Assembly: GCA_020846025.1 (NCBI GenBank)
Contig: JADLER010000189.1
Span: forward strand, 1 to 49,501
DNA from: Bacteroidia bacterium
GTDB lineage: Bacteria; Bacteroidota; Bacteroidia; B-17B0; Aurantibacillaceae
DNA length: 49,501 nt
Direction of reading: 5' to 3'
The position numbers and the translations under genes were made by a program. Below are positions 9,706-45,394 of the stretch, one piece after another. Every line of letters begins with the position of its first letter. Positions within the stretch are counted from its first letter, which is position 1. The notes beneath the pieces were generated by a model, which saw only the letters and a list, made by a program, of their open reading frames with translations, was not told the DNA's origin and ran no database searches.

Positions 9706-11754
9706 ATGAATATTAAAAAACAAATTGTGGTGTTTTGTGTAAGCTTTATAGCTTTGCTTAATTCTAATTTGTTATTGGCGCAACCCTCAACGGTAACATC
9801 TTCAGATAGTTTAATTCAAAGAGTTCGTTTGTCTTATCAAGAAAATCCTAATTTAGCATATCAGTATGCTACACAGGCAGTAGTTCAGGCTAAAAAAGAG
9901 AACTCAGACCTTAATTTAGGTATTGCTTATGAGATGTTAGGGCTTTCATTAGATTACCTTAGTAAATTGGATTCAGCTTTATATTATTATGATAAAGCGG
10001 CGCCTTTGTTAAGTGCTCAGTCGGATAAGATACATTTGGGGCAATTGTATATCACCAAAGCCAATACTTTATATCTATTAAATAGAAATCAAGAAGCCAT
10101 ATTATATTATCAAAAAGCTTATGATCTATTAAAAATATCAGGGAATATAAAAAAACAAGCAGGTGCATTAATGGGCATGGCTAATATCTATTCTATTATG
10201 AAATCGTATGAGTTGTCGCTTAAATATTATGCACAATCTCTAGATTTAGTTAAACAAATTAATGATGAACAGTTTACTTCCTATATACTGACTAATATAT
10301 CGGAGGTTTACACTTCGATGCGAGATTATAAGAAGGCCATAGAATATGAAAGTCAATCTTTAAAGATTAAAGAAAAGATTCATAAAGATTATGATTTAGT
10401 TTATACCTATATTAATCTAGCGGAATTATTGATGATGGAAAATTTGAATTATAAAGACTCTGCATTGATGTATCTGAATAAGGCAGTAGCTTTGTCTAAT
10501 AAAATAGATAATCAAGAGTTTTTGTGTAGTTCATATCAAGGTATGGTAAAATTCTATGACGCTATCAATGATAATCAAAAAGCAATTGAATACGCATACT
10601 TAGCATTAGAATTGTCGAAGAGGATAAAAAATATTAGAAGTGAATTAAATATATCTGGACTTCTTTCTAATATTTTTGAGGAGCAGAAAAATTTTGAAAA
10701 AGCAAATGAATATATACACAGATATATTATACTAAACGACAGCATAAATAATATGGAAGTTCGAAAATCATTTAATGAACTACAAACCAAGTATGAAACA
10801 GATAAAAAGGAAAAAGAAATTATGTTACTTAACGAACGTGATAAAAAACGCACGTATTTTATTTACTCCTCCATTATTGTGGTTGCATTATTAGGGCTAC
10901 TTTCTTTTACATTATATAACCGTTTTAGGTTAAAGAAAAAAGTAGCAGGAGAGTTGGAAAAGAGAAATAAAGAAATTGAAATTCAGAAAAATTTAGTAGA
11001 TGAAAAGCAAACCGAGATTTTAGATTCGATTAATTACGCTAAACGTATTCAGTACGCCTTATTAGCACAGGAAGAAGTTTTAAAAAGAAATCTTAAAAAC
11101 TATTTTATATTATTTAAACCTAAAGATATTGTTAGTGGCGATTTTTATTGGGCTACGGAACATCAAGATAAATTTTACTTAGCGGTGTGTGATAGCACAG
11201 GACATGGCGTGCCAGGAGCATTTATGAGTTTGCTAAACATTGGTTTTTTAAGCGAGGCGGTTAAAGAAAAACAAATCACGAAACCTCACGAAATATTAAA
11301 CTATGTAAGGCAACGCCTAATTGAAAGTATTGCTACAGAAGGGCAACAAGATGGCATGGATGCTATTTTAATTTGTTTAGACAAAAAGAACTCTAAAATA
11401 ACTTATGCCGCCGCTAATAATCAACCCGTATTAATTCAACAATCATCACAATTAGTTGAATTATCAAAAGACAAATTGCCCGTAGGAAAAAGCCCACATG
11501 AACAGTCGTTTAACTTATATGAGATTGATGCTCAAAAAGGAGATAAATTATATTTATATACAGATGGTTTTGCTGATCAATTTGGAGGACCTAAGAAAAA
11601 GAAATTCAAATACAAACAGCTTCACGATTTGTTACTGAATAACTCTAATTTGCCTTTAGCAAAACAATACCAGAATCTGGAATCTTCGTTTAATTCTTGG
11701 CGTGGTGATTTAGAACAGATAGATGATGTATTAATTTTAGGCTTCGAAATTTAA
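9706..11754 (+). CDS. TPR-repeat sensor with C-terminal SpoIIE-type PP2C phosphatase
   Basis: 682 residues, a paralogue of the proteins at 724 and 17955. It has a signal peptide (about 1-26), TPR-like helical repeats (about 50-350), a membrane segment near 384-405, a coiled coil (about 408-445) and a SpoIIE phosphatase domain. Metal-site motifs are KPKDIVSGDFYW near 471, CDSTGHGVPGAFMS near 494, YTDGFADQFGG near 618 and QIDDVLILG at the end. The sequence just before the phosphatase, DSINYAKRIQYALL, is the conserved linker in this group. The target is unknown. The IPP isomerase gene follows at a distance of 34 bases with its own promoter box. Confidence 0.93.
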   Translation: MNIKKQIVVFCVSFIALLNSNLLLAQPSTVTSSDSLIQRVRLSYQENPNLAYQYATQAVVQAKKENSDLNLGIAYEMLGLSLDYLSKLDSALYYYDKAAPLLSAQSDKIHLGQLYITKANTLYLLNRNQEAILYYQKAYDLLKISGNIKKQAGALMGMANIYSIMKSYELSLKYYAQSLDLVKQINDEQFTSYILTNISEVYTSMRDYKKAIEYESQSLKIKEKIHKDYDLVYTYINLAELLMMENLNYKDSALMYLNKAVALSNKIDNQEFLCSSYQGMVKFYDAINDNQKAIEYAYLALELSKRIKNIRSELNISGLLSNIFEEQKNFEKANEYIHRYIILNDSINNMEVRKSFNELQTKYETDKKEKEIMLLNERDKKRTYFIYSSIIVVALLGLLSFTLYNRFRLKKKVAGELEKRNKEIEIQKNLVDEKQTEILDSINYAKRIQYALLAQEEVLKRNLKNYFILFKPKDIVSGDFYWATEHQDKFYLAVCDSTGHGVPGAFMSLLNIGFLSEAVKEKQITKPHEILNYVRQRLIESIATEGQQDGMDAILICLDKKNSKITYAAANNQPVLIQQSSQLVELSKDKLPVGKSPHEQSFNLYEIDAQKGDKLYLYTDGFADQFGGPKKKKFKYKQLHDLLLNNSNLPLAKQYQNLESSFNSWRGDLEQIDDVLILGFEI

Positions 11755-17954: not shown

Positions 17955-19967
17955 TTGAGAAAGTTTATATGTATAATATGCTGTGTGGTATCAAGTCAGC
18001 TTGCTTTCACTCAAAATATTGATTCTTTGAAAAAAGAATTAGCAGTATGCAATAATGATACTAATAAAGTAAATATATTATTACAACTCATTGAAATTAT
18101 AACAGATGATAACGTATGGCCAAAATATAATGACCAAATGCTTCATGTGTCGGAAAAGTTAATAGAAAGTGACAATGCATTAATACGTAGAAAAGGGCAA
18201 AAAGGACTGGCTGATGCCTATAACAACATTGGATTTATTTATAATAACCAAGGTGATATTCCAAATGCGTTAGAGAACTTTAGGAAAAGTTTAAGTATGC
18301 AAGAAAAATTAGGAGATAAAGTGGGGGTGGCGGAATCCATGAGTAATATAGGGGTTATTTATTATTTTCAGAACGAGTTATCTAAGGCTTTAGATTATTA
18401 TTTAAAGAGCTTAAAAATCCGTGAGTCAATAGGAGATAAGGATGGTATTGCAAACTCTTTAAATAACATTGGGAATTTATTTTATACCCAAAATAATATG
18501 ACAAGGGCTTTATATTATAGCACAAGAAGTTTGAAAATACAAGAAGAGATTGGAGATTATGAGGGAATGGCTTATTCTTTAAATAATTTGGGAGGTATTT
18601 ATTTTTATAAAGGAGAAATTGCCAAAGCTTTAGAATATTATTTTAAAAGTAAACAAATGAGCCAAAAAATTGGCGACTCACAAGGCTTAGCAGCTTCCAT
18701 GCATAATATTGCTTCAGTGTATATAAAATCCGCACTTAGAAATCAAGGAGATAGAAAAAAACAATTATTACTAGCCCAAGCTTATACAGACAGTTCTTTA
18801 ACCCTCTCAAGACAACTGGGATTTCCGGCAAATATTAGAAATGCAGAACGTTTATTATCGCGAATAGATTCTGCTAATGGAAGATTTGCCGATGCTTGGG
18901 AACATTATAAACAATATATTATTTATAAGGATAGTATAAATAATGAAGCTAATCATCAAGCAAGTATCAAAAGTCACTTAAAATATGTGTTTGAAAAAAA
19001 AGAAGCCATCTTAAAGGAACAGATAGATAAAGAGCGAATAATAGTTGAAGAAAAAAGCAAAATGCAACAACTAATTATTTTTTGTGTGGCTGCTGGTTTA
19101 GCACTAGTATTAGTTTTTTCTTTATTTATTTATAGAAGTTTACTAAAGAATCGGAAAGCAAATTTAATTATCTCAAATCAAAAAAAATTAGTAGAAGATA
19201 AAAACTTAATCATTGAAATTAAACAAAAGGAAATAATAGACTCAATCAATTATGCCAAGCGCATTCAATATTCGTTACTAGCTCATCACGATTACTTGAA
19301 GCAACATTTGCCAAACCATTTTATTTATTTTAATCCTAAAGATATTGTAAGTGGCGATTTTTACTGGGCAACCAAAAAAGATGATAAATTTTATTTAGCT
19401 GTATGCGATAGTACTGGACATGGTGTTCCTGGCGCATTTATGAGTTTATTAAACATAGGTTATTTAAGCGAAGCTATTAATGAAAAGGACATAGAAAAAC
19501 CTAATGAGATTTTTAATTATGTGCGTACACGCTTGATAGAAAATATTAGTAAAGATGGGCAAAAAGATGGCTTTGATGGTATTTTAATTTGTTTTGATAA
19601 AGGTTCTAATCAATTAACCTATGCTGCTGCAAATAATAAACCGGTTTTGATTCATGATAATCTGGTTAAAGAACTTGAGGCAGATAGAATGCCCGTTGGG
19701 ATAGGTGAGAAAAAAGATAATTTCAATCTATATACAGTAAATGTGTCTTCTGGTGATTTGTTATATTTATATACTGATGGTTATGCCGATCAATTTGGTG
19801 GGCCAAAAGGTAAGAAGTTTAAATATAAGTCTTTAAATGAGTTGATAAACACTAATCATCATTTTACATTAACTCAACAGCAAGAGATTTTAAGTTCAAA
19901 TTTCGAGTTTTGGAAAGGAGAATTAGAACAAGTAGATGATGTGTGTGTAATAGGGATTAAGTTTTGA
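17955..19967 (+). CDS. TPR-repeat sensor with C-terminal SpoIIE-type PP2C phosphatase
   Basis: 670 residues, the third member of this paralogous group. It starts at TTG (17955), which gives the signal peptide MRKFICIICCVVSSQLAFTQ. There are four to five TPR units of 40 residues (about 85-290), a membrane segment near 374-394, a coiled coil, then the phosphatase. Motifs are NPKDIVSGDFYW near 460, CDSTGHGVPGAFMS near 483, YTDGYADQFGG near 608 and QVDDVCVIG at the end. The usual KPKD is NPKD here. No regulator gene is adjacent. Confidence 0.92.
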   Translation: MRKFICIICCVVSSQLAFTQNIDSLKKELAVCNNDTNKVNILLQLIEIITDDNVWPKYNDQMLHVSEKLIESDNALIRRKGQKGLADAYNNIGFIYNNQGDIPNALENFRKSLSMQEKLGDKVGVAESMSNIGVIYYFQNELSKALDYYLKSLKIRESIGDKDGIANSLNNIGNLFYTQNNMTRALYYSTRSLKIQEEIGDYEGMAYSLNNLGGIYFYKGEIAKALEYYFKSKQMSQKIGDSQGLAASMHNIASVYIKSALRNQGDRKKQLLLAQAYTDSSLTLSRQLGFPANIRNAERLLSRIDSANGRFADAWEHYKQYIIYKDSINNEANHQASIKSHLKYVFEKKEAILKEQIDKERIIVEEKSKMQQLIIFCVAAGLALVLVFSLFIYRSLLKNRKANLIISNQKKLVEDKNLIIEIKQKEIIDSINYAKRIQYSLLAHHDYLKQHLPNHFIYFNPKDIVSGDFYWATKKDDKFYLAVCDSTGHGVPGAFMSLLNIGYLSEAINEKDIEKPNEIFNYVRTRLIENISKDGQKDGFDGILICFDKGSNQLTYAAANNKPVLIHDNLVKELEADRMPVGIGEKKDNFNLYTVNVSSGDLLYLYTDGYADQFGGPKGKKFKYKSLNELINTNHHFTLTQQQEILSSNFEFWKGELEQVDDVCVIGIKF

Positions 19968-32862: not shown

Positions 32863-32880
32863 TTTAGGTTATTACCTAAA
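32863..32880. terminator. small hairpin at the end of two convergent genes
   Basis: TTTAGGT and ACCTAAA form a perfect 7-bp stem with loop TATT, overlapping the stop region of the minus-strand adhesin gene. No strong T-run follows, so terminator activity is uncertain. Confidence 0.3.
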
Positions 32881-35800
32881 CAAATTCACTGAGCCATGTT
32901 TTTCTATTTCTTTTCCGTCAAAGCCAGTGGCTTTTACAAAGAAGAAGTAGGTGCCCTCAGGAGCAGAAGCACCATTTGGTACTTTTCCATCCCACGAGGC
33001 TTTCGCGCCGCTGAACTCGTATAATTTCTCACCCCAACGGTTAAAGATTTGTAAAGCTATTTCTTTTACCCCTGTAGATTTAATAGTAAATATATCATTT
33101 ACATTATCCCCATTTGGTGTAAATACATTTGGTATTTCAAGTGTTAAACCATCTTCTACCACTATTTCTACCGTAGCTGTTGCTACACAAGTTCCAGACG
33201 CTACCACTAAACTCACAGTATAAGTTCCTGTGGTAAATGTTTGACTTGGATTTTGATCAGTAGATGTTTGACCATTTCCAAAATCCCATGTAAAACTTGT
33301 GCCATTACCACCACCCGTAAAGTTAACATCTAGTGGCGATGTACCCGTTGTAGGATTAGCAGTTAAACTAGCCGTAGCCGATGATTGACTAACTGTTACT
33401 ACTGCCGAACTCGAACAACCCGTTACATTATCAGTTACAGTTAAAGTGTAAGTTCCTGTTTCGCCAACTGTAGGATTTAAAGTATTGCTACCTGTTAAAA
33501 TACTAGTAGCAGATGGTCCAGCCCAAGTATATGACACATTACTAGAAGTGGTAACACCGTTTAATACTACTGTGCTACTACCACAAGCAATGTTAGCCGA
33601 TGTACCAGCATCTACACCTTGTGGTGTAACCGTACTACCAGTTACTACATATTGTACGGTGGTTGAACAGCCATTTACTGCATCTACTACTTCTAAAGTA
33701 TAAGTACCCGCCGATGTTACATCAATAGATGGTGTATTAAGATTACCAGGTAACCAATTAATATTGGTAGCGTTAGCACCGCTAGTACTAGAGTTTAAAG
33801 TAACTGTACCATTACTAGCCCCACAACCAATTACAGTGTTACTTGAGGTAACTGTAATAGTGCCAGTAGGAGCTGTATTATCTACAACCACTGTAAAGGT
33901 ATTTGCTGTATTAGTAGAAGAACTAACACAACCTGTAAGCGTATTGGTTACAGCTAAGGTATAAACACCTGCTGCGGTAAATGTGGCACTCGCCTGATTT
34001 GGAGAACTTGCTAAACCTGTTCCAGACCAAGTATAAGTTACATTAGCACTTGGTGATACCGTAGGAGTTACCGTTACATTCAAATTCGTACAAGTAATGG
34101 TACCACTATTTCCAGAAGTAGAAAGCGTGGCTGATGGTAATGCTGTTGCATCTACCACGGTTACAACATTATTGGCAATGCTGGTAGCACAACCCGATAC
34201 TGTATTTGTTACCACTGCACTATACGTTCCAGGAGCGGTAAACTGTGGTGTAGCAGTAGTTTCAGTGCCAGGCACAATACCAGCCGTAGGCGACCAACTA
34301 TAACTTACAGGGCTCGCTGTGGTGGTAATAGCTACCGTAGGGCTTGGATTTGTACAAGTAATAGAAGCTGTATTAGATGATAAGGTTACTACTGGAATAC
34401 CTGCATCAGCTACTACCTCTACAGTAGCTTGTAAAGCCGATGAAGTGCTACATCCAGTAATTGTATTGGTAACAGATACTGTATAAATACCTGGATTACT
34501 TACCATAACCGGGTTACCAGTTAAAGTACCACTGCTTGGTGTTGTCCAAGTATAAATGGTATTAGGGTCATCTGAACTACTACCTGATAAGGTTACGGTA
34601 GGTACTGCGCAAGTAGCGGTTAAGGTAGGAGCTGTACCTAAGGTAAAGCTAGGCGTTGTGGTATTAGAGATAACGGTTACAGTGCTTGTACCTGTACAAC
34701 CATTGATATTGTCAGTAACTGTCACCACATAACTACCGCCTGCATCCACACTTGGGCTACTGCTTGTGCCATTGGTAATAGTACCAGGGCCAGACCATGA
34801 ATACGCATAATTAGTACCTGTTGGTGTCGCATTAAGGGTAACAAGCGTATTAGTACAAGTAATGGTAGATGATGAAGTGGCATTAGCCACTGGGGCAATG
34901 GTATTACTTGGCACATTGGCTGTGTAAATAGCATCACAACCTGAAGAAGTATTTGTAATGGTTACACTATACACGCCTGGCATGTTAGCTGTTGTTACTG
35001 AATTAGTAGGGCTACCTAAAGTACCTGGCCCACTCCAAGCGAAAGATAAAGGATCGGAACCAACCGGTGTCACCCCAATGGTAACAATAGAATTAGTACA
35101 AGTAATAGAATTAGTAACAGGGTTTACTGTTGCTTGCGGAACATTCGTAGAAGAACTTACGGTTACCACTGAAGTATGAGTACAGCCAGAGGCTGGTATG
35201 GTAGCAACTAAAGTATAGGTACCAGGAGCACAAGCTGCTGTTGTAAAACTACTAGATGAGCCACAAACACCGCCTAACCAGTTAGCTGTAGCACCTGCTG
35301 GACTTGCTGAGCCTGTTAAGGTAACAGAAGGGCTTCCGCAGGTAAGGGTTTGAGACGGACCAGCATTCGCTGTTGGTGTGGTGGTGTTTTGATTAATAGT
35401 GGTATTAGCAGTAGCGGTACAACCATTAGCGGCTGTTACTACAACAACGTAAGAACCTGGAGTATTAGCGGTAGTAGTCGCAGTGTTAGTAGCTCCTGTA
35501 ATACCAGGACCAGACCATGCATAAGTACCACCACCAGTAGCGGTTAGATTAATGCTATTAACAGTACAGGTTAATGAACCACTATTGCTAGCGCCTGCTG
35601 TTGGAGCTGTTGTATTTTGTGTAACAGACGTATTAGCAGTAGCAGTACAACCATTGGCAGCTGTAACTAAAACAGAATAAGTGCCACCCGCATTAACGGT
35701 TGGGTTTGCAGAAGTGTTGCCTGTGATAGCACCGCCAGTCCAAGCATAAGTTCCACCACCACTAGCTGTTAAGGTAACAGTAGTATTGGTACAATTTAAT

Positions 35801-38049
35801 GAACCAGAATTTACAGCACCTGCTGTTGGAGCGGTAGTATTTTGTGTAACAGATGTATTAGCAGTAGCAGTACAACCATTAGCAGCTGTAACAGTTACTA
35901 CATAAGTACCTGGTAAATTCACGGAAGGAGTAGCAGTAGAACCACCACTTACAATACCTGGCCCACTCCAAGCATAGGTTCCTCCACCAGTACCAGTAAT
36001 GCCAATGGTACGTGTAGTACAGGTTAAAGTAGAACTATTGCTAGCGCCCGCTGTTGGTGCAGTAGTGTTTTGTGTAACAGATGTATTAGCAGTTGCAGTA
36101 CAGCCATTGGCAGCTGTAACAGTTACTACATAAGTACCTGGTAAATTTACGGAAGGAGTAGCAGTAGAACCACCACTCACAATACCTGGTCCACTCCAAG
36201 CATAAGCACCTCCACCAGTACCAGTAATGCCAATGGTACGTGTTGTACAGGTTAAAGTAGAACTATTGCTAGCACCCGCTGTTGGTGCGGTAGTGTTTTG
36301 AGAAACCGCTGTTGTTGTAGTAGTAGAGCAACCATTACTGCCAGTTACAATTACAGTATATGTGCCTCCTTGATTGATAACAGGATTTGCTGTTAAACTA
36401 CCACTTACAATACCTGGTCCACTCCAAGTGTAAGTTCCGCCTCCTGTGGCTGTGAGTGTTGCAGTGGTATTTGTACAATTTAAACTAGCAGAATTTACTG
36501 TTACTGTTGGACCAGCTCCTGAGGTAACGTAAACAGTAGATTTAAGCATAGCTAAACATCCCGAAGTGCCTCCAACATAACAGCTATACGTGGTGGTTAC
36601 AGTAGGATTTACTACAACAGAGTGTGTGGTATTAGAACCAACAAAAGTACCTGGATTAGATGCAGTCCACGAATAGGATAAAGCACCAGAGTTTACACTT
36701 AATGTCGTTGAACTTCCTGCACAAATAGTAGCAGAATTAGCAGATATTGTATAAGCAGAAGCACTGGCACAAATGGCATTACTGCTCATACCTGCCGTTG
36801 TGTTTGTTCCTGCATAATTTGTTGCTGTAGATAAATTAACATTAGTTACTGTACCATTAAGTACTGTTAAGACAGGAGATGAATTTACTTTTGTAATACT
36901 GGTGCCACATGTTGCAGATGAACCAGCAAAACCACTTGTGTCCGTAACTACTAAACCGAAATCCCAGTTCCCTCCTACTGTAGGTCCCATCCATCCGCTA
37001 GCCAAATAAGTACAACCAGAGATAGTGATACCATGAAAACCATCATCATTAACACTTGGTCCACCACCGTTTCCATATCTTTTTGTCCAAATAACAGTTC
37101 CTGTATTGCCATTTAGTTTTGCCATCATTGCATAATTATTTTCTGTTTCACCAGCCACAACTACAGCACCGTATTGGTCGAACGCACAATTAATACCCCA
37201 TGAATTTCCCATAGTAGTTGGATTTCGGAGATACCAACTGTATTGACCATTAATTTGGCGTGTCCATAACACATTACCTGAAAGGTCTATCTTTACTACT
37301 ATAAGATTACCTGGATTTCCCGAACTTGACTGAGCGGTTGCGCCACATAAAACAATTCCACTCGCAGATATATCCATTCCCGTAAAGTGAGGCCTTAATG
37401 ATGCACCCACATAAGTCTTACACCAATTTACATTCCCATTAGCAGCATTTACACTTAAAACATAAGATTCGGCTGTACCGCCAACATCAAAACTTCCTGC
37501 CATATAATAATTGGAACCTGATTTATGAATCACATAAGCATCTGCATTATTTCCATTAATAGTATATTCTTTATACCAGATTAGATTCCCACTAGCATCT
37601 GTTTTAATAATACAAGGCTTGTTATTAAACCCAGCAGCTACTACATCTGTACCATCATTTATAATATATCTTAAGGTCCCACTTCCATAATTTTTAGAAA
37701 ACTGTTTTACCATTGTGGCATCATACTTTACAATAAGTTTGTTTTGAGAACCAATTGCTCCATTATGTCCAGCAACAAAAATATTATCTGATGCATCAAT
37801 GGAAGCAGAGAATAGTTCACCTGAATTAGCAACAACTCTGTTAGTAGAGTAGGCACCTGTTGTATTTGCTACCACAAAACAAGGTTTATCGTCTAATAAA
37901 CCTGCCATGACTAATTCGCCTTTTGCATTTACTACAAGGTGATTAGACCACGAATAATTACCAGATTGTCCATAATTGAAATATCCAATATTTTGAGCAA
38001 AGCTACCTATTGTAATAAATGAAAAAATAATAAGTATGATTTTTTTCAT
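32872..38049 (-). CDS. giant adhesin-like T9SS protein with Ig/PKD repeats and type B (gliding-motility) sorting domain
   Basis: 1725 residues. It has a signal peptide MKKIILIIFSFITIGSFAQ, then a beta-propeller-like region to about residue 390 (repeats with FVAGHNG, VVAAGFNNKP, IVLCGATAQ). About 15 Ig/PKD-like units of 75-85 residues follow (pattern T-C-T/N, Y-W-S/T-G-P, G-x-Y-x-V-x-V-T-x-x-x-x-G-C). There is one canonical PKD unit near 1570 (FTWDFGNGQTSTDQNPSQTF) and a C-terminal CHU_C domain (IPNVFTPNGDNVNDIFTIKS...IFNRWGEKLYE). The tail marks it as type IX secretion cargo for the cell surface. It is rich in Thr and Ser with regular paired Cys. Function beyond adhesion is inference. Confidence 0.92.
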   Translation of the reverse strand: MKKIILIIFSFITIGSFAQNIGYFNYGQSGNYSWSNHLVVNAKGELVMAGLLDDKPCFVVANTTGAYSTNRVVANSGELFSASIDASDNIFVAGHNGAIGSQNKLIVKYDATMVKQFSKNYGSGTLRYIINDGTDVVAAGFNNKPCIIKTDASGNLIWYKEYTINGNNADAYVIHKSGSNYYMAGSFDVGGTAESYVLSVNAANGNVNWCKTYVGASLRPHFTGMDISASGIVLCGATAQSSSGNPGNLIVVKIDLSGNVLWTRQINGQYSWYLRNPTTMGNSWGINCAFDQYGAVVVAGETENNYAMMAKLNGNTGTVIWTKRYGNGGGPSVNDDGFHGITISGCTYLASGWMGPTVGGNWDFGLVVTDTSGFAGSSATCGTSITKVNSSPVLTVLNGTVTNVNLSTATNYAGTNTTAGMSSNAICASASAYTISANSATICAGSSTTLSVNSGALSYSWTASNPGTFVGSNTTHSVVVNPTVTTTYSCYVGGTSGCLAMLKSTVYVTSGAGPTVTVNSASLNCTNTTATLTATGGGTYTWSGPGIVSGSLTANPVINQGGTYTVIVTGSNGCSTTTTTAVSQNTTAPTAGASNSSTLTCTTRTIGITGTGGGAYAWSGPGIVSGGSTATPSVNLPGTYVVTVTAANGCTATANTSVTQNTTAPTAGASNSSTLTCTTRTIGITGTGGGTYAWSGPGIVSGGSTATPSVNLPGTYVVTVTAANGCTATANTSVTQNTTAPTAGAVNSGSLNCTNTTVTLTASGGGTYAWTGGAITGNTSANPTVNAGGTYSVLVTAANGCTATANTSVTQNTTAPTAGASNSGSLTCTVNSINLTATGGGTYAWSGPGITGATNTATTTANTPGSYVVVVTAANGCTATANTTINQNTTTPTANAGPSQTLTCGSPSVTLTGSASPAGATANWLGGVCGSSSSFTTAACAPGTYTLVATIPASGCTHTSVVTVSSSTNVPQATVNPVTNSITCTNSIVTIGVTPVGSDPLSFAWSGPGTLGSPTNSVTTANMPGVYSVTITNTSSGCDAIYTANVPSNTIAPVANATSSSTITCTNTLVTLNATPTGTNYAYSWSGPGTITNGTSSSPSVDAGGSYVVTVTDNINGCTGTSTVTVISNTTTPSFTLGTAPTLTATCAVPTVTLSGSSSDDPNTIYTWTTPSSGTLTGNPVMVSNPGIYTVSVTNTITGCSTSSALQATVEVVADAGIPVVTLSSNTASITCTNPSPTVAITTTASPVSYSWSPTAGIVPGTETTATPQFTAPGTYSAVVTNTVSGCATSIANNVVTVVDATALPSATLSTSGNSGTITCTNLNVTVTPTVSPSANVTYTWSGTGLASSPNQASATFTAAGVYTLAVTNTLTGCVSSSTNTANTFTVVVDNTAPTGTITVTSSNTVIGCGASNGTVTLNSSTSGANATNINWLPGNLNTPSIDVTSAGTYTLEVVDAVNGCSTTVQYVVTGSTVTPQGVDAGTSANIACGSSTVVLNGVTTSSNVSYTWAGPSATSILTGSNTLNPTVGETGTYTLTVTDNVTGCSSSAVVTVSQSSATASLTANPTTGTSPLDVNFTGGGNGTSFTWDFGNGQTSTDQNPSQTFTTGTYTVSLVVASGTCVATATVEIVVEDGLTLEIPNVFTPNGDNVNDIFTIKSTGVKEIALQIFNRWGEKLYEFSGAKASWDGKVPNGASAPEGTYFFFVKATGFDGKEIEKHGSVNLFR
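35845..36300 (-). repeat. two tandem 228-bp coding repeats within the adhesin
   Basis: Copies 35845-36072 and 36073-36300 encode 76-residue Ig-like units. By eye there are about 12 base differences, but only one residue differs (Ala/Thr in GGG(A/T)YAW). A related unit with a 225-bp period continues at 35620-35844. Confidence 0.85.
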
Positions 38050-38189: not shown

Positions 38190-40193
38190 TTAAAAGATAA
38201 AATTAAGATTAGCGGTAAAGTTTCTTCCAAATCTTGGAACCTGACCAATATCTAAATGCTCACGGTATCTGATGTCGAAAATATTCTCACAAGCTAATGA
38301 GAATTGAATGACACTAGATTTTATTCTGAAATTTCTAGCAGCTCTTAGGTTAAATAAGTGGTATTCAGGAGTTAAAACATCTCCATAATCGCTGTTAACC
38401 CTATTTTGTTTCATCGCATAATCGTGTTCAATCTGAAATTGAAATAAATTTAATTTATAACGTAAAGCATGTTGTAATTTTAAAGGTGGAATTAAAGGCA
38501 ATGATTTTCCATCAAATGTTTCTGTATAAATATATTTAATACTATTTATATAGGTAAGGTTATCAATAATGTGATACTTTAAATTAAACTCTCCCCCCAT
38601 TGATGTGGCGTATTTTATGTTCTTATAGGATTTTAAACCTTTTGCACCAATTGTCATAGCACTCATGCCATTAAGTTGGTATGAGTAGATGTAATTACTT
38701 ATTTGGTGATAAAAGAAATTAAAAGAGTAATCCAATTTTTTTAAACTATGTTTTATAAGTAATTCAGATTGATAGGATTGCTCTGGTTTTAATAAAATAT
38801 TACCTATATAGTCGTATTGATCTTGTCGATTAAATAAATAATATCCATATCGTTCATTACTTGTGGCAAGACGCTCTCCATAGCCAACGGATAATTGAAC
38901 CAATAATCTATCTAAGAATGTTTTTGAATAAGAAATATTTCCGCTCTTTAAAACATCTTCTAATTCATTTGTAATATTTGTGTTAAATACTTTCCACTGT
39001 TTATAACCTATACCTCTTACGGCAGATTGTAAATAATAATCAGCTCGAGCATTAAAATTTAATTGTTGTTTGTGTTTTAAATCAAGTTTATATTTAATAG
39101 CTAAGCCAGCATTATTAAGATTGTTTTCGGGCAATGTTTGCATATACATAATGGGTTCACCAATAGGATACATTGTCATGTCAGCGCGTGCATATACATT
39201 ATGAAAATCGAGCCTAACTTTTAATTTATCACTAGCAAATAACTCATTATACATTCCAGTAGTTTTTGTCCATCCTGGCATATCCATGTGCATAGGAACA
39301 TTCGGGCGATGAGTGTCATCCATGAAATGTGTTATTTGGTTGTAATAAAATTTTAATTCATTTCTAGTGAAGTAACTGTTGTTAAATGTAATTTGATGTG
39401 TTAAAGATGTTATTTGTGCTGTTGCATTTCCAACATCCATAGGTAAGGCTGGGTAGCCAATATTTTTTCCCCAATCTCCTAAGTAGTCTATTTTAAGTAA
39501 CTGAGTTTTTGCAATTTTAAATAACACATTGGCTCCAATATTGTATTTTTCAAATCCTGAGTATGGAATAATTAAATATCCACCTGCTTTATAATCATTT
39601 GCTTTTCTATAAGTACCATTTACTCGATAGGCTATTTTTTCGGTGGAATGTTGTAGTGCAGCAGATGCATAGTAAGCATTGTTTACACTTAAATATGTTT
39701 GAGAAATTTGACCGCTTAGATTAGAATGGCAATTTAGTGTGGGTTCTCGTAGTTGCATATTTATTTGCCCACCAATATTGCTGCCATTCATTGTTCCTGA
39801 AGCGCCATGTGCTACTTGTATAGCAGATAGATTGGAGGGTTCAACATAAATAGAAACTGGATCCATTTTGTCTGTACAAGCGCCATAAATCTTCATGCCA
39901 TCAATCGTTAAATTAGTTTGACCTGAATTGTAATTTCGCAAAGTAGGCTCTAACCCATAAGCGCCTCGTTTAATTAAATTAACGCCTTGCATTCTAGATA
40001 AAATATCTTCGGTAGTTGCTAATTTGTTGTTTTTATAAAAATCAAACGATTGATCTTTTTCTTCACTTAAGTCGCATACTGAAATTTCATCAAGTGTAAT
40101 GGTCTTTAAGGACGAATCTTTTGGGGTGTTTTGCCCCAAAAGATTCAAATTTATGAATAGAATAAATATGACTAATATTTGTTTTTGTAACAT
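38190..40193 (-). CDS. TonB-dependent receptor, OprC/NosA-like (putative copper uptake)
   Basis: 667 residues with a signal peptide (about 1-20), no carboxypeptidase-like N-terminal domain, a plug (about 50-150) and a barrel ending in NFTANLNFIF. In the plug, GACTDKMDPVSIYVEPS has the CxxxM arrangement (C106, M110) that binds copper in Pseudomonas OprC. An extracellular-loop-like stretch HFMDDTHRPNVPMHMDMPGW (H289 to W308) is rich in Met and His, suggesting a second ligand set. These features and the neighbours point to copper. A different metal cannot be ruled out. Its ATG overlaps the stop of the upstream lipoprotein (TAATG). Confidence 0.85.
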   Translation of the reverse strand: MLQKQILVIFILFINLNLLGQNTPKDSSLKTITLDEISVCDLSEEKDQSFDFYKNNKLATTEDILSRMQGVNLIKRGAYGLEPTLRNYNSGQTNLTIDGMKIYGACTDKMDPVSIYVEPSNLSAIQVAHGASGTMNGSNIGGQINMQLREPTLNCHSNLSGQISQTYLSVNNAYYASAALQHSTEKIAYRVNGTYRKANDYKAGGYLIIPYSGFEKYNIGANVLFKIAKTQLLKIDYLGDWGKNIGYPALPMDVGNATAQITSLTHQITFNNSYFTRNELKFYYNQITHFMDDTHRPNVPMHMDMPGWTKTTGMYNELFASDKLKVRLDFHNVYARADMTMYPIGEPIMYMQTLPENNLNNAGLAIKYKLDLKHKQQLNFNARADYYLQSAVRGIGYKQWKVFNTNITNELEDVLKSGNISYSKTFLDRLLVQLSVGYGERLATSNERYGYYLFNRQDQYDYIGNILLKPEQSYQSELLIKHSLKKLDYSFNFFYHQISNYIYSYQLNGMSAMTIGAKGLKSYKNIKYATSMGGEFNLKYHIIDNLTYINSIKYIYTETFDGKSLPLIPPLKLQHALRYKLNLFQFQIEHDYAMKQNRVNSDYGDVLTPEYHLFNLRAARNFRIKSSVIQFSLACENIFDIRYREHLDIGQVPRFGRNFTANLNFIF

Positions 40194-41041
40194 TATTGTA
40201 AAGTCATTTCAAAATATTGATCATCACTTATTAATGTTCCATTTTTAAATAATTTTAAGTGTACATACCACAATCCAGACATGGTATAATTTACTTTTCC
40301 TAAATAGTGACCCTTGCCTACATGTGTTGGGTTGATATTATTTGGCGAGCCATGTCCCATGCTCGGCATTTCTGGTTCAATTTCAACTGTATATTGGTCA
40401 ATAAATGGATAAGTCATTCCGTTTACACGTTGATGTAAGGTTATTTCAAAATTATTGGTTCCAACAGATGGGTTGGTTGGTTGTACCAGGCTAATAAACA
40501 CTTTTTTATTACTATCTAATGCTAAAACTACACTTTTAAATTTACTAGGAGAACTTGCTGACACATCTACGCCAAGAGAGCCTAGTCCTGATTTGCCATT
40601 TTTGTGGTTATGGAAATTAATATTTAATGACCACTGAGAAGCAGTTCCAGCCATTGAGAATATAACAGCGCTTCTAAAGTAGCCATTTGTACTAATTGTA
40701 TCACTTGTGTTTTCTACTGGTGAACCATGAGACATACTTCCCATATTCATTAATGGAGAGATATTACAGTGGCCCATATTAAGAGCACTTCCATCTGTTG
40801 AATCAGTAAAAGCTACATAGATAAGATTATATCCAGTTTCAAAAGCTTTATCTGTATATATTGAAGCTTTTGCATTTGCCCCAACAATATAAGTTTCTCC
40901 AATTTTTATTAGGTTGTTGGGCGTGCTTGGTGTTGTAACTTCTTCTTCTGGTTCAATAGATTTGTTTTTTTTACAGGCACTTGAAATTCCAATAATGAAG
41001 AGTAAAAATGTTAAGAGTTTAATTTTGTTAAGCGTTTTCAT
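40193..41041 (-). CDS. lipoprotein with two YtkA-like domains, Met/His rich (paralogue A)
   Basis: 282 residues. The signal peptide ends in a lipobox (IGISSAC, C23). There are two similar beta-sandwich halves (about 45-160 and 165-280). Each carries a Met/His cluster at the same place: MNMGSMSHGSP (98-108) and PEMPSMGHGSP (224-233 region). The second half also has GKGHYLGKVNYTMSGLWYVHLK, the pattern of YtkA-like domains. Such Met/His clusters suit Cu(I)/Cu(II) binding, so this may hand metal on from the receptor. It is about 50% similar by eye to the protein at 41681 and coupled to the receptor gene by a 1-base overlap. Confidence 0.8.
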   Translation of the reverse strand: MKTLNKIKLLTFLLFIIGISSACKKNKSIEPEEEVTTPSTPNNLIKIGETYIVGANAKASIYTDKAFETGYNLIYVAFTDSTDGSALNMGHCNISPLMNMGSMSHGSPVENTSDTISTNGYFRSAVIFSMAGTASQWSLNINFHNHKNGKSGLGSLGVDVSASSPSKFKSVVLALDSNKKVFISLVQPTNPSVGTNNFEITLHQRVNGMTYPFIDQYTVEIEPEMPSMGHGSPNNINPTHVGKGHYLGKVNYTMSGLWYVHLKLFKNGTLISDDQYFEMTLQ

Positions 41042-41203: not shown

Positions 41204-41572
41204 TTAACAGGTAGGTGGGTGAAAAATAGACTGAGTAGCTTTAGGTAAATTACTTGGAATGAATTTACCATTTAGCGAAGCGTTTGGTGTTTCTATGTTT
41301 AATAATTTTAATTCATTGTTCTCTGAGATTAAAAGTATTTCATTTATCTCTTTAAATGTGTTTTTTGTTGTGCCTTCCTTTTCTTCTTGTTCATGCAATT
41401 GTTTTTTTAGATGACACTTACCTTTACATTTTAATTTTGGTTTAGACTTATTCTCACAATACTTTTTGGTAATTAATTCCTTATTTATAATGTAATTTGA
41501 GAATAAATACAATTTACTGAAAGTAGAACTTAGTAAACCAACAACAAGAATTATAGCAACAATTATTCTCAT
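41204..41572 (-). CDS. small exported Cys-rich protein of a Bacteroidota copper-locus family
   Basis: 122 residues with an N-terminal hydrophobic segment (2-17). The core YCENKSKPKLKCKGKCHLKK (C39, C49, C53, H54) and the C-terminal FHPPTC (H118, C122) leave four Cys and two His on the exported part. I recognise the pattern C-x9-C-x3-CH from small uncharacterised Bacteroidota proteins encoded near metal-transport genes, but I know no biochemical role. The Cys/His pattern suggests metal binding or thiol redox. It lies between the two lipoprotein paralogues and has a possible promoter upstream. Confidence 0.7.
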   Translation of the reverse strand: MRIIVAIILVVGLLSSTFSKLYLFSNYIINKELITKKYCENKSKPKLKCKGKCHLKKQLHEQEEKEGTTKNTFKEINEILLISENNELKLLNIETPNASLNGKFIPSNLPKATQSIFHPPTC

Positions 41573-41680: not shown

Positions 41681-42526
41681 TTAATGTACATCCATATCAA
41701 AAATCTGGTCGGTACTGATTAATGTGCCATTTTTAAATAATCTCACATGAACAATCCATGCGCCTGTCATTGTGAAATTTACCCTTCCAAAATAATGTCC
41801 CTTCTCAGTGAATATGGGATTTACATTAAAGGGAGAGCCATGTTCCATACTGGCCATTTCAGGTTCAATTTCTACTGAGTACGAATTAATGGTTGTATAT
41901 ATTGAGTCGGTAATTTTTTGGTGTAATACAATTTCAAAATTATTTTTTCCAACTTTTGGTAGTTCGGGCTGCACTAATGACATGTAAACTTGTTTATTGC
42001 TATCTAATGCTAATACAAGATCCTTAAACCGGCTAGGAGTACTTGCATTTACTTGAATGTTTAACGTTCCATTACCTGTTGTGTTATTGGTATGATTATG
42101 GTAATTTATTAATAATTGCCATTGAGATGCAGTACCTGTCATTGGAAATACAACGGCTCTTTTATAATAATTATCAGTAACCACACTGTCTGTTGAATTT
42201 TCAATAGGGGCGTAGTGTATTGTTCCGCCCATATTCATTTTTGCAAAAATTTTGCAGTGTCCATAGTTTAAGGCGTTTCCACTTGCCGAATCAATAAACT
42301 GAATATACAAAGAGTTATATCCAGTTTCTAAATTTCTTGGAGCAAATATTAACACTTTGGCATTTGCTCCAATTATATACGTTTCTCCTATCTTTAACAA
42401 ATTACTAGTATTATTTATGCTTGATGTTTCTTCTTCTTCTGGCTCATTATCATGTTGCTTTTTACAAAACGTAAAAACACTTAAGCATAAAATTAATACT
42501 AGTGATAAAGTTTTTATTTTCATCAT
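41681..42526 (-). CDS. lipoprotein with two YtkA-like domains (paralogue B)
   Basis: 281 residues with a lipobox (SVFTFC, C21). It is the same two-domain design as 40193-41041 and shares long identical segments (LLKIGETYI, GANAK, GTASQW, LALDSNK, VEIEPEM, LFKNGTLIS). Its Met/His clusters are partly degraded: AKMNMGGTIHYAP (95-106) and PEMASMEHGSP (222-232). The paralogues may therefore differ in metal affinity. The start is 10 bases after the Rrf2 stop, so it is co-transcribed with the regulator. Confidence 0.8.
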   Translation of the reverse strand: MMKIKTLSLVLILCLSVFTFCKKQHDNEPEEEETSSINNTSNLLKIGETYIIGANAKVLIFAPRNLETGYNSLYIQFIDSASGNALNYGHCKIFAKMNMGGTIHYAPIENSTDSVVTDNYYKRAVVFPMTGTASQWQLLINYHNHTNNTTGNGTLNIQVNASTPSRFKDLVLALDSNKQVYMSLVQPELPKVGKNNFEIVLHQKITDSIYTTINSYSVEIEPEMASMEHGSPFNVNPIFTEKGHYFGRVNFTMTGAWIVHVRLFKNGTLISTDQIFDMDVH

Positions 42527-42536
42527 AATTTTGAAG

Positions 42537-42974
42537 TTAGATTTTTAAACAACTTAACCCTATATCTACACTTCTCGACATATCAGAAAGGGTTGTTTTA
42601 TGAACCATCTTTAGTAAATCTTTTTTAATAAATTTAAATTGATTGTGAACGGGACAGGGGTGGTCTTCAGAACATTTTTTTAATCCTAAAACGCAAGTTT
42701 TTTCAATCATATTCCCATCAATGGCAGTAATAACATCTATTAATTTAATTTTTTTAGAGTCTTTCATATTAATACCAAAGCCTCCTAGCTTACCTTTACT
42801 CGAGTTAACTATACCAGCTCTAACTAATTTTTGTAAAATTTTAGCCGTAAATGCTTTTGGCGAATCAATTTCATTTGAAATATCTGTTAAGTTACACTGT
42901 TCTTTATTTAATGATTTTTGTGCAATATAAACTGTTGCTTTTATGCCATATTCGCAAGCCTTTGAAAATATCAT
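42537..42974 (-). CDS. Rrf2-family transcriptional regulator with Cys/His cluster
   Basis: 145 residues. The winged helix N-terminus (MIFSKACEYGIKATVYIAQ, then the recognition-helix region SPKAFTAKILQKLVRAGIV and the wing SSKGKLGGF) is that of Rrf2/IscR/NsrR proteins. A cluster C94-x6-C101-x5-C107 with H110 in CPVH matches the position where IscR and NsrR bind an Fe-S cluster, so redox, NO or metal sensing is plausible. It is the first gene of the minus-strand metal operon and sits across the intergenic region from mbnP, so it probably regulates both arms. Confidence 0.88.
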   Translation of the reverse strand: MIFSKACEYGIKATVYIAQKSLNKEQCNLTDISNEIDSPKAFTAKILQKLVRAGIVNSSKGKLGGFGINMKDSKKIKLIDVITAIDGNMIEKTCVLGLKKCSEDHPCPVHNQFKFIKKDLLKMVHKTTLSDMSRSVDIGLSCLKI

Positions 42975-43026: not shown

Positions 43027-43028
43027 TC

Positions 43029-43042
43029 GGATATTTTTATCC
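43029..43042. promoter_or_regulatory. candidate Rrf2 operator GGATATTTTTATCC
   Basis: A perfect 5-bp dyad GGATA-N4-TATCC between the two divergent promoters. A further half-site-like TATTATCC follows at 43056-43063, directly upstream of the mbnP -7 box. Assignment to the Rrf2 protein is inference from location. Confidence 0.5.
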
Positions 43043-43075
43043 TAATTTAAATAAATATTATCCTATTTTTTTGCA

Positions 43076-43163: not shown

Positions 43164-43931
43164 ATGAAAGCTTTTAATTTTTATGCCCGATTATTCATTA
43201 TAATGTTCATTACTGTAATAATGAGTGCTTGTAAAAAAGACACGAAGGTTTCAGACAAAGTTGAAGAGCCTGAAAGTACAACCACCTCAGTTACTTTTAG
43301 TTTTATACCTAAAAATGGTACTCAGACCTTACTTTGGGATTCTATTTCAAATACCAATGCGGCAGGCAATCAATTTAGTGTAAATACTATCAATCTGTAT
43401 ATTTCAAACGTGTGGTTGAAACATGCTAATGGGAGTATATTTAAATCAAATCAGGTGTTTTATATCGACCCAAAGATTGTTTCAAAATCTTCTTTCCAAT
43501 TAAGTGATGTTCCGAAAGGAGATTATGTAGAAGTCCAATTTCTGTTGGGATTAGATACAATTAAGAATGTTGACAACGGATTAGAAACAACTATGGATAA
43601 TTTAAATATGGCTTGGCCAACAATGATGGGTGGTGGTTATCATTTTATAAAAATGGAAGGACATTATTTAGATGGCGCTAGTGTGTCTAAAGGTTATGCG
43701 GTTCATTTAGGAAAAAATGAAAACTTGGTACAAGTTACGATTCTTAAGAATTTAAGCTTTCCGAATGCAAGTCATCAGTGCTCTATTTCATTTGATGTGA
43801 ATGAAGCATTTACAAGTCCTTATTTATATGACCTTAATGCTGAAGCAAATTATACGATGTCTGATTCCATCGCAATGTCTCATATTAAAACAAACTTACA
43901 AGATGCGTTTAATATTATTCAAAATAACTAG
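43164..43931 (+). CDS. mbnP: MbnP-family copper-associated lipoprotein
   Basis: 255 residues from the ATG at 43164, which gives a lipoprotein signal (IMSACKK, C23); the frame extends upstream only to a TTG. The MbnP family pattern is present: NQFSVNTINLYISNVWLKHANGS (69-91), MAWPTMMGGGYHFIKMEG (149-166) and YAVHLGKNEN. Trp residues are W58, W84 and W151. His residues H160, H167, H181 and H204 could serve as ligands. In methanotrophs MbnP binds copper and one Trp is oxidised by the di-heme partner MbnH. The partner gene follows here with a 29-base overlap. Confidence 0.85.
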   Translation: MKAFNFYARLFIIMFITVIMSACKKDTKVSDKVEEPESTTTSVTFSFIPKNGTQTLLWDSISNTNAAGNQFSVNTINLYISNVWLKHANGSIFKSNQVFYIDPKIVSKSSFQLSDVPKGDYVEVQFLLGLDTIKNVDNGLETTMDNLNMAWPTMMGGGYHFIKMEGHYLDGASVSKGYAVHLGKNENLVQVTILKNLSFPNASHQCSISFDVNEAFTSPYLYDLNAEANYTMSDSIAMSHIKTNLQDAFNIIQNN

Positions 43932-44919
43932 TGTAATATTCTTAGCTCTTCTATTATTTAACTGTACTAAAAATAGTGCGGAGGAGATAGAGCCTAACAC
44001 CGCTACACCGCTTACACCTTATACAGTGAATGTTCCTGATTATTTTCCTAAAATGGAAATACCAGTAGATAATCCCTTGACTGTAGAAGGAATAAGTTTG
44101 GGAAGACAATTGTATTACGATCCTATTTTATCAAATAATGGAAACTCTTGTTCTACTTGTCATAATGCACCTGAGTCCTTTTCTAGTTATTCGGCAAATT
44201 CCTTACCGCATATAAATTTAGCATGGAATTCTACTTTTTTATGGGATGGACATATAAATGGTACCTTAGAAGACATTATGAAATTTGAGGTAGAAGATTT
44301 TTTTCAAACAGATATATCTAAATTAAACAACTCTTCATATTATAAAAGTGAATTTAAAAAAGTTTTTAATGTTGATGTCATAACTCATAAAAATGTTGAA
44401 TATGCTTTGGCCCAATTTTTTAGAGTAATGGTTTCTTCTAATTCTTTGTACGATAAATTCTATCAGCATACTGCAAACTTTACTCCTTCACAAATGAATG
44501 GTTTTATCACGTTTATTACTGAGAAAGGGGATTGTTTTCATTGTCATTCAGTAGGGCTTTTTACTGACAACAAATTTCATAATATAGGCATTGACTCAGT
44601 ATTTACAGGTGTAAACGCTGGACGTTATAATTATACAAATAACCCAAGCGATCTAGGATTATTTAAAACACCCACTTTAAGAAACATTGAATTAACTCCG
44701 CCTTATATGCACGATGGTAGATTTCAAACTCTTGAAGAGGTAGTTGATTTTTATAATTCTGGTGTTAAACACAGTTCTACTCTTGATCCTATTATGACAA
44801 AAGGCACTAAAATGTTTGGCTTAGGTTTAAGCGCTACTGATAAGCAGGATTTAGTTGCTTTCCTTAAAACATTAACTGATACTACATTTACAAAAAATCC
44901 AATGCTACAACAGCCTTAA
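43903..44919 (+). CDS. mbnH: MbnH-like di-heme cytochrome c peroxidase family lipoprotein
   Basis: 338 residues from the ATG at 43903. This start gives a lipobox (LLLFNC, C21); the frame upstream of it only shadows mbnP. Two c-type heme sites are present: CSTCH (83-87) and CFHCH (211-215). Conserved CcP/MauG elements are LGRQLYYDPILSNNG, LAWNSTFLWDG, TPTLRNIELTPPYMHDGRF and TLEEVVDFYNSG. Family members use peroxide or high-valent heme chemistry; MbnH oxidises a Trp of MbnP. The overlap with mbnP, rather than with a detoxification gene, supports MbnH over a simple cytochrome c peroxidase. Confidence 0.88.
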   Translation: MRLILFKITSVIFLALLLFNCTKNSAEEIEPNTATPLTPYTVNVPDYFPKMEIPVDNPLTVEGISLGRQLYYDPILSNNGNSCSTCHNAPESFSSYSANSLPHINLAWNSTFLWDGHINGTLEDIMKFEVEDFFQTDISKLNNSSYYKSEFKKVFNVDVITHKNVEYALAQFFRVMVSSNSLYDKFYQHTANFTPSQMNGFITFITEKGDCFHCHSVGLFTDNKFHNIGIDSVFTGVNAGRYNYTNNPSDLGLFKTPTLRNIELTPPYMHDGRFQTLEEVVDFYNSGVKHSSTLDPIMTKGTKMFGLGLSATDKQDLVAFLKTLTDTTFTKNPMLQQP

Positions 44920-44968: not shown

Positions 44969-45394
44969 ATGAATACAAATATTATTGATTTTATAAATCA
45001 AAATCAAGTGGCTACCATTTGTTTTGTAGATAAACAAAATAAACCTTATTGTATTAATGCGTTTTATTGTTTTGCAGATAATCAAGAAACCTTAATTTTT
45101 AAATCTTCGTTTGGTACAACACATGATGATTTTGTTAAGAATGGAAATCCTACATCTGGAACCATTGTGCAAGATCAAAATAATTTAGCAAAACTTAAGG
45201 GGATTCAGTTTTCAGGAGTTATTGTCAATCAGGATGAAATTAATAAGCGCGGATTAAATCAACTATATCTCAAAAAGTTTCCTATCAGTATTGCGAAGCC
45301 AGGATACATTTGGGGTATAGAACTTAATTTTATAAAATTTACTAATAATACTCTTGGATTTGGCAATAAAACTGTTTGGCAAAAAGAAAATTAG
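44969..45394 (+). CDS. pyridoxamine 5'-phosphate oxidase-like (split-barrel flavin-binding) protein
   Basis: 141 residues. The segment VATICFVDKQNKPYCINAFYCF near 15-36 and the following strand LIFKSSFGTTHDDFVKNG fit the FMN-binding split barrel of PNPOx-like proteins. These catalyse diverse flavin or heme reactions; the specific reaction is not predictable. It lies 49 bases after mbnH and could be in the same transcript, but no functional link is evident. Its last 4 bases overlap the convergent SRPBCC gene. Confidence 0.78.
   Translation: MNTNIIDFINQNQVATICFVDKQNKPYCINAFYCFADNQETLIFKSSFGTTHDDFVKNGNPTSGTIVQDQNNLAKLKGIQFSGVIVNQDEINKRGLNQLYLKKFPISIAKPGYIWGIELNFIKFTNNTLGFGNKTVWQKEN

Follow-up and report, generated by a model that had tools for sequence, protein, structure and literature searches.

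A pair of overlapping genes in a 49,501-nucleotide stretch of DNA from a Bacteroidia bacterium (hereafter the window) is a real, selected and unusual version of a known pairing, that of the copper protein MbnP with the di-haem enzyme MbnH. In methanotrophs, MbnH oxidises a Trp of MbnP to kynurenine, which becomes part of a copper site, and the ordinary enzyme does so by peroxide-type haem chemistry. For the pair described here, we give about even odds (a probability of roughly 0.5) to the reading that it is a variant MbnP/MbnH pair within a redox- or NO-responsive copper regulon, with a haem chemistry probably unlike that of the H2O2-driven MbnH. MbnP would bind Cu(I) as a lipoprotein tethered to the membrane, MbnH would be the di-haem partner made with it, and the copper-handling regulon to which they belong would be switched by an Rrf2 regulator of the Fe-S type during low-oxygen or nitrogen-oxide respiration.

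Features of the mbnP/mbnH locus, with positions counted from the first base of the window
Feature	Position	Strand	Remarks
TonB-dependent receptor	38190..40193	-	closest to the TonB-dependent copper receptor model (TIGR01778), with a score below the cut-off
second YtkA-domain lipoprotein	40193..41041	-	
small Cys-rich protein (YC...CKGKC...PPTC)	41204..41572	-	no family match
YtkA-domain lipoprotein	41681..42526	-	
Rrf2-family regulator	42537..42974	-	cysteines C-x6-C-x5-C; divergent from mbnP
predicted palindromic operator TCGGATATTTTTATCCTA	43027..43044	.	between Rrf2 gene and mbnP
mbnP-like gene, MbnP-family lipoprotein, 255 aa	43164..43931	+	PF20243 E 4.2e-26, 92.5 bits, above the cut-off of 27
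MbnP variant motif M149-A-W151-P-T-M-M155-G-G-G-Y-H160	43608..43643	+	in place of WxW
W151 codon (MbnP)	43614-43616	+	
H181 codon (MbnP)	43704..43706	+	the same in every aligned MbnP; probable copper ligand
mbnH-like gene, di-haem c-type MauG/bCCP-family lipoprotein, 338 aa	43903..44919	+	CCP_MauG E 9.6e-28
first haem-binding motif CSTCH	44149..44163	+	
H103 codon (MbnH)	44209..44211	+	new His of altered-pocket group
remodelled pocket segment LEDIMKFEVEDFFQT	44266..44310	+	replaces LE.Q...P.....EM
second haem-binding motif CFHCH	44533..44547	+	
Y284 codon (MbnH)	44752..44754	+	position of MauG-type axial Tyr
YhbP-like protein	44969..45394	+	

A selected pair of lipoprotein genes

The initial annotation had identified the two genes as mbnP and mbnH, and this is borne out by the matches of their products to PF20243 and CCP_MauG and by the best solved relative of MbnH, the 'Di-heme enzyme' 6e1c (E 7.8e-42). 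Both products score below the curated cut-offs of two further models, MbnP with 24.8 bits against 140 for MbnP_like_WxW (TIGR04052) and MbnH with 191.8 bits against 362.85 for the 'MbnH family' (TIGR04039). The genes are adjacent and co-directional, and the 29-base overlap (43903-43931, +) from which joint production had been proposed was confirmed and recurs, likewise at 29 bases, in three relatives (G086, L066 and L067), as read from their coordinates. The proposed tethering of both proteins to the membrane is likewise supported by their lipobox Cys residues, C23 of MbnP (MSAC) being invariant in eight close MbnPs and C21 of MbnH in nine close MbnHs, although the window's own LFNC is atypical.

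In comparison with G086, whose MbnP is 91% identical to that of the window, dN/dS was 0.047/0.67 (about 0.07) for MbnP and 0.020/0.51 (about 0.04) for MbnH, and these low ratios indicate that both are working genes under purifying selection. A genome search found a single MbnP gene in the window's genome, together with two further bCCP-like genes elsewhere in it. A scan of genome contigs yielded just two relatives, and a scan of viral contigs yielded none.

A remodelled haem pocket in MbnH

MbnH has the two CxxCH motifs and the axial Tyr on the second haem (Y284) that mark the MbnH/MauG type, and according to the alignment it retains the inter-haem Trp; with both c-haems in place it may still be a two-haem oxidant or an electron relay. 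Missing from it are the distal-pocket Gln and Pro of MauG, bCCP and MbnH, as well as a loop of 12-14 residues before the pocket, and the pocket Glu possibly corresponds to E129. We compared the pocket of the window protein and eight relatives (n=9) with that of 26 ordinary or bCCP-type rows. The Arg that precedes the pocket (26/26), the Pro (25/26) and the Gln (22/26) of the latter are found in none of the nine altered proteins, all of which have a His at position 103 that occurs in 0/26 elsewhere. The Glu is present in all 26 rows and, aligned at E129, in seven of the nine, being missing in L070 and L071. The interval between the first CxxCH and the inter-haem Trp is 38-40 in ordinary members versus 26 in the altered group (34 in two of them). 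With the pocket masked, the altered MbnHs still form one clade (support 86/96).

The pocket Gln, Pro and Glu are conserved across bCCP, MauG and BthA, where their variation harms peroxide binding (PMC6405878), and bCCPs with Gln or Glu variants are inactive (PMC10094543). The peroxide pocket of this clade has thus been rebuilt, with the loop, the otherwise invariant Arg, the Gln and the Pro lost, the Glu perhaps kept and an invariant His103 gained. Instead of activating H2O2 in the usual way, MbnH may activate a different molecule, or H2O2 with the help of another acid-base residue. The stronger idea that the whole peroxide pocket is lost was softened, since E129 may replace the Glu. That this MbnH acts like the methanotroph enzyme, as the initial annotation had assumed, is doubtful in view of an MbnP without WxW, an MbnH without Gln, Pro and preceding loop, and two relatives in which even the Glu is gone.

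One alternative is that this is an ordinary pair that has undergone drift, in which MbnH would use H2O2 with E129 as catalytic Glu and H103 or another residue in place of the Gln, and would turn W151 of MbnP into the kynurenine of a Cu(I) site. Such drift would be compatible with the retention of both haems, the inter-haem Trp and the Tyr ligand, with the alignment of E129 to the catalytic Glu (Glu113) in 7/9 proteins, with the invariance of W151 in the group and with a Gln that also varies in 4/26 ordinary members, but it fits poorly with the loss of the Glu in L070 and L071 and with the joint alteration of a Pro, an Arg and a 12-14-residue loop that are near-invariant otherwise, and we consider it somewhat unlikely. 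A conserved branch with an altered pocket is an experiment of nature on which residues of the pocket are needed.

The variant motif of MbnP

MbnP contains three Trp residues (W58, W84 and W151), and the earlier choice of W151 as the candidate for oxidation stands up well, as among them W151 alone is conserved throughout the family. Invariant positions among 17 aligned MbnPs are Y121, G129, M149, W151, G158, K163, E165, G166, H181, G183 and N244, and M149, W151 and H181 are kept across the window group, the f20/f43 group and the ordinary members. The copper site of MbnP in the published structure includes the Trp (as kynurenine), a Met and a His; M149 and H181 are the candidate ligands of the family as a whole. 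These two had been missed by the initial annotation, which pointed to H160 and H167 beside W151. H160, invariant like M232 in GGGYH sequences only, is retained as a candidate ligand specific to the subclade, whereas H167 is not conserved in the alignment, and the two were rejected as a ligand pair for that reason. In MbnP, as a predicted copper binder, the core positions M149, W151 and H181 are preserved, and M155, H160 and M232 are additional candidate ligands of the subclade.

The WxW motif itself is absent from MbnP, which has MAWPTMMGGGYHF with a single Trp at this place. Ordinary members of the same order read M-F-W-S-W-x-x-G-Y and the window MbnP and its clade M-x-W-P-x-x-M-G-G-G-Y-H; a third group, found in four genomes that belong to a single family, has SWNWP, SWNVP, SFNVP or NFNVP followed by LGGGYH. 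Direct profile alignment of the window clade with ordinary members places MxW on MxW with fairly high confidence, W151 being the first Trp of WxW. The third group aligns with ordinary members through the first of its Trp residues, and its alignment with the window clade puts W151 on its second Trp. As the three pairwise alignments are mutually inconsistent, the homology of W151 to the first Trp is likely, not proven. In work from 2021 on the MbnP of M. trichosporium, it was reportedly this first Trp that was converted to kynurenine, and W151 is probably its homologue as judged from sequence.

The opposite assignment leads to a different picture of the pair, in which W151, as the second Trp of WxW, would not be oxidised, copper would be bound by a Met/His site without kynurenine (M149, M155, H160, H181 and M232) and MbnH would serve as an electron-transfer or structural partner. 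This would agree with the profile alignment to the SWNWP/SWNVP/SFNVP group, which has lost one or both Trp residues and yet has an intact MbnH partner, and with the invariance of M232 and H160 among GGGYH sequences. We nevertheless consider it unlikely, given the confident match of MxW to MxW in the direct alignment and the joint conservation of M149 and W151, exactly as in ordinary members. Our preferred reading remains that of a variant pair in which W151 would be the oxidised residue.

WP-type MbnPs of two other families (G099, G217, G120; G305) have MbnH partners with an intact pocket, which indicates that the change in MbnP and the change in MbnH were separate events. Masking the motif in a tree of MbnPs left the GGGYH proteins together in a set of 17 rows (100/99), one of them a long-branched WxW-like row (L086), apart from the 26 ordinary ones. 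AlphaFold2 models of both proteins, built from three-sequence alignments, reached a mean pLDDT of 44 and 40, which was too low, and were discarded. Two MbnP relatives, L092 and L098 (G174 and G398), have no Trp at all at the motif (SFNVP and NFNVP), and the pocket of the MbnH partner is intact.

Genomic context and known systems

The three cysteines of the divergently encoded Rrf2 regulator are spaced as in Fe-S members, as read from the sequence, and the regulator may bind the predicted operator, a palindrome expected by chance 0.06 times in the window with one mismatch allowed. Its consensus, derived from these very loci, has 2-4 sites per genome in G000 (the window's genome), G086, G021 and G032, where an Rrf2 gene stands next to the pair or at the head of its gene row, 0 sites in four relatives with no Rrf2 gene seen beside the pair, and no matches in the controls. 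Two more copies in the window's genome precede a lipoprotein gene (L128, G000:C29:27125) and an acyl-CoA-synthetase-like gene (L134, G000:C217:5708) and add little explanation. A gene similar to that of the YhbP-like protein lies near the pair in L072, L067 and L071. Farther away, the window encodes a very large repeat protein of 1725 aa (32872-38049, -), which by reading has a C-terminal segment of the gliding/T9SS type (NVFTPNGDNVNDIFTI), and, within 20 kb, three similar TPR proteins with what reads as a C-terminal SpoIIE-like phosphatase domain (724-3153, 9706-11754 and 17955-19967).

No nitrogen-oxide respiration gene adjoins the pair in the window. In G032, the genes run in the row Rrf2, ScdA/RIC, class II ribonucleotide reductase, mbnP and mbnH, and 6-10 kb beyond it lie norB/norC-like genes (the NorB assignment coming from COX1 membership and reading rather than from a NorB model), whose leading gene carries a second operator. 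In G021, the second operator precedes the same kind of gene, and the pair lies ~3 kb from norC/norB-like genes and ~20 kb from nosZ. The gene downstream of the operator in both genomes, which heads the nor-like genes in G032, encodes a protein of 605-607 aa (HTFHIPVMGLGFTIDTP...) of no known family (L137:3363-5183 and L138:573-2387). NarK and MoaA are encoded beside the pair in G052, G053 and G043, with narG on the same contig, and a RIC-like protein and a hemerythrin-domain protein are encoded near it in G043 and G052, respectively. Seven of the eight genomes with the variant pair have nosZ, versus 13/79 others of the family (Fisher p 9e-5, a value that is too small as the genomes are related and is indicative only).

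The pair is likely used to bind or deliver copper when oxygen is low or nitrogen oxides are respired, and loci with genes for NO reductase and for the repair of NO damage tie this family of copper-binding lipoproteins to such respiration. A more speculative extension, to which we assign a low probability, is that the rebuilt pocket is an anoxic adaptation, with NO, nitrite or another non-peroxide oxidant maturing the copper site of MbnP, so that the loading of copper would be tied to nitrogen-oxide respiration, with the supply of nitrous-oxide reductase as one example. If true, it would provide a di-haem enzyme that matures a copper site without H2O2, and copper supply to NosZ bears on the removal of N2O.

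Among known systems, the window pair resembles in its gene pairing that of Methylosinus trichosporium OB3b, which we take to be the source of 7l6g (MbnP) and 6e1c (MbnH). The two MbnHs are related, and the window MbnP has MAW in common with 7l6g (MAWNW; a weak profile match, E 0.5), but it has no second Trp and carries the WPxxMGGGYH insertion, and 6e1c has the Gln, Pro and Glu, of which the Gln and Pro are missing here. No methanobactin genes were recognised among the window's ORFs. The WxW-type pairs of other Bacteroidota (TIGR04052/TIGR04039) are likewise lipoproteins, whose genes overlap or adjoin and follow the same order, but they combine WxW with the full peroxide pocket where the window pair combines a variant motif with a rebuilt one. 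MauG and the bacterial di-haem cytochrome c peroxidases are alike in the two CxxCH motifs and the inter-haem Trp, and the axial Tyr of the window MbnH is of the MauG type; it differs from them in having no distal Gln, Pro, preceding loop or Arg. A precedent for non-peroxide chemistry in the MauG fold is hydrazine synthase gamma, a homologue of bCCP and MauG whose active haem is the proposed site of action on NO (PMC12607021), to which the window MbnH has a weak match only (NF052341, E 4.6e-4), with no sign of a common function. The same logic as in MbnP/MbnH is seen in the copper proteins MopE/CorA with SACCP/CorB, in which a Trp-derived kynurenine is part of a Cu(I) site, accompanied by a MauG-like partner (PMC3912023).
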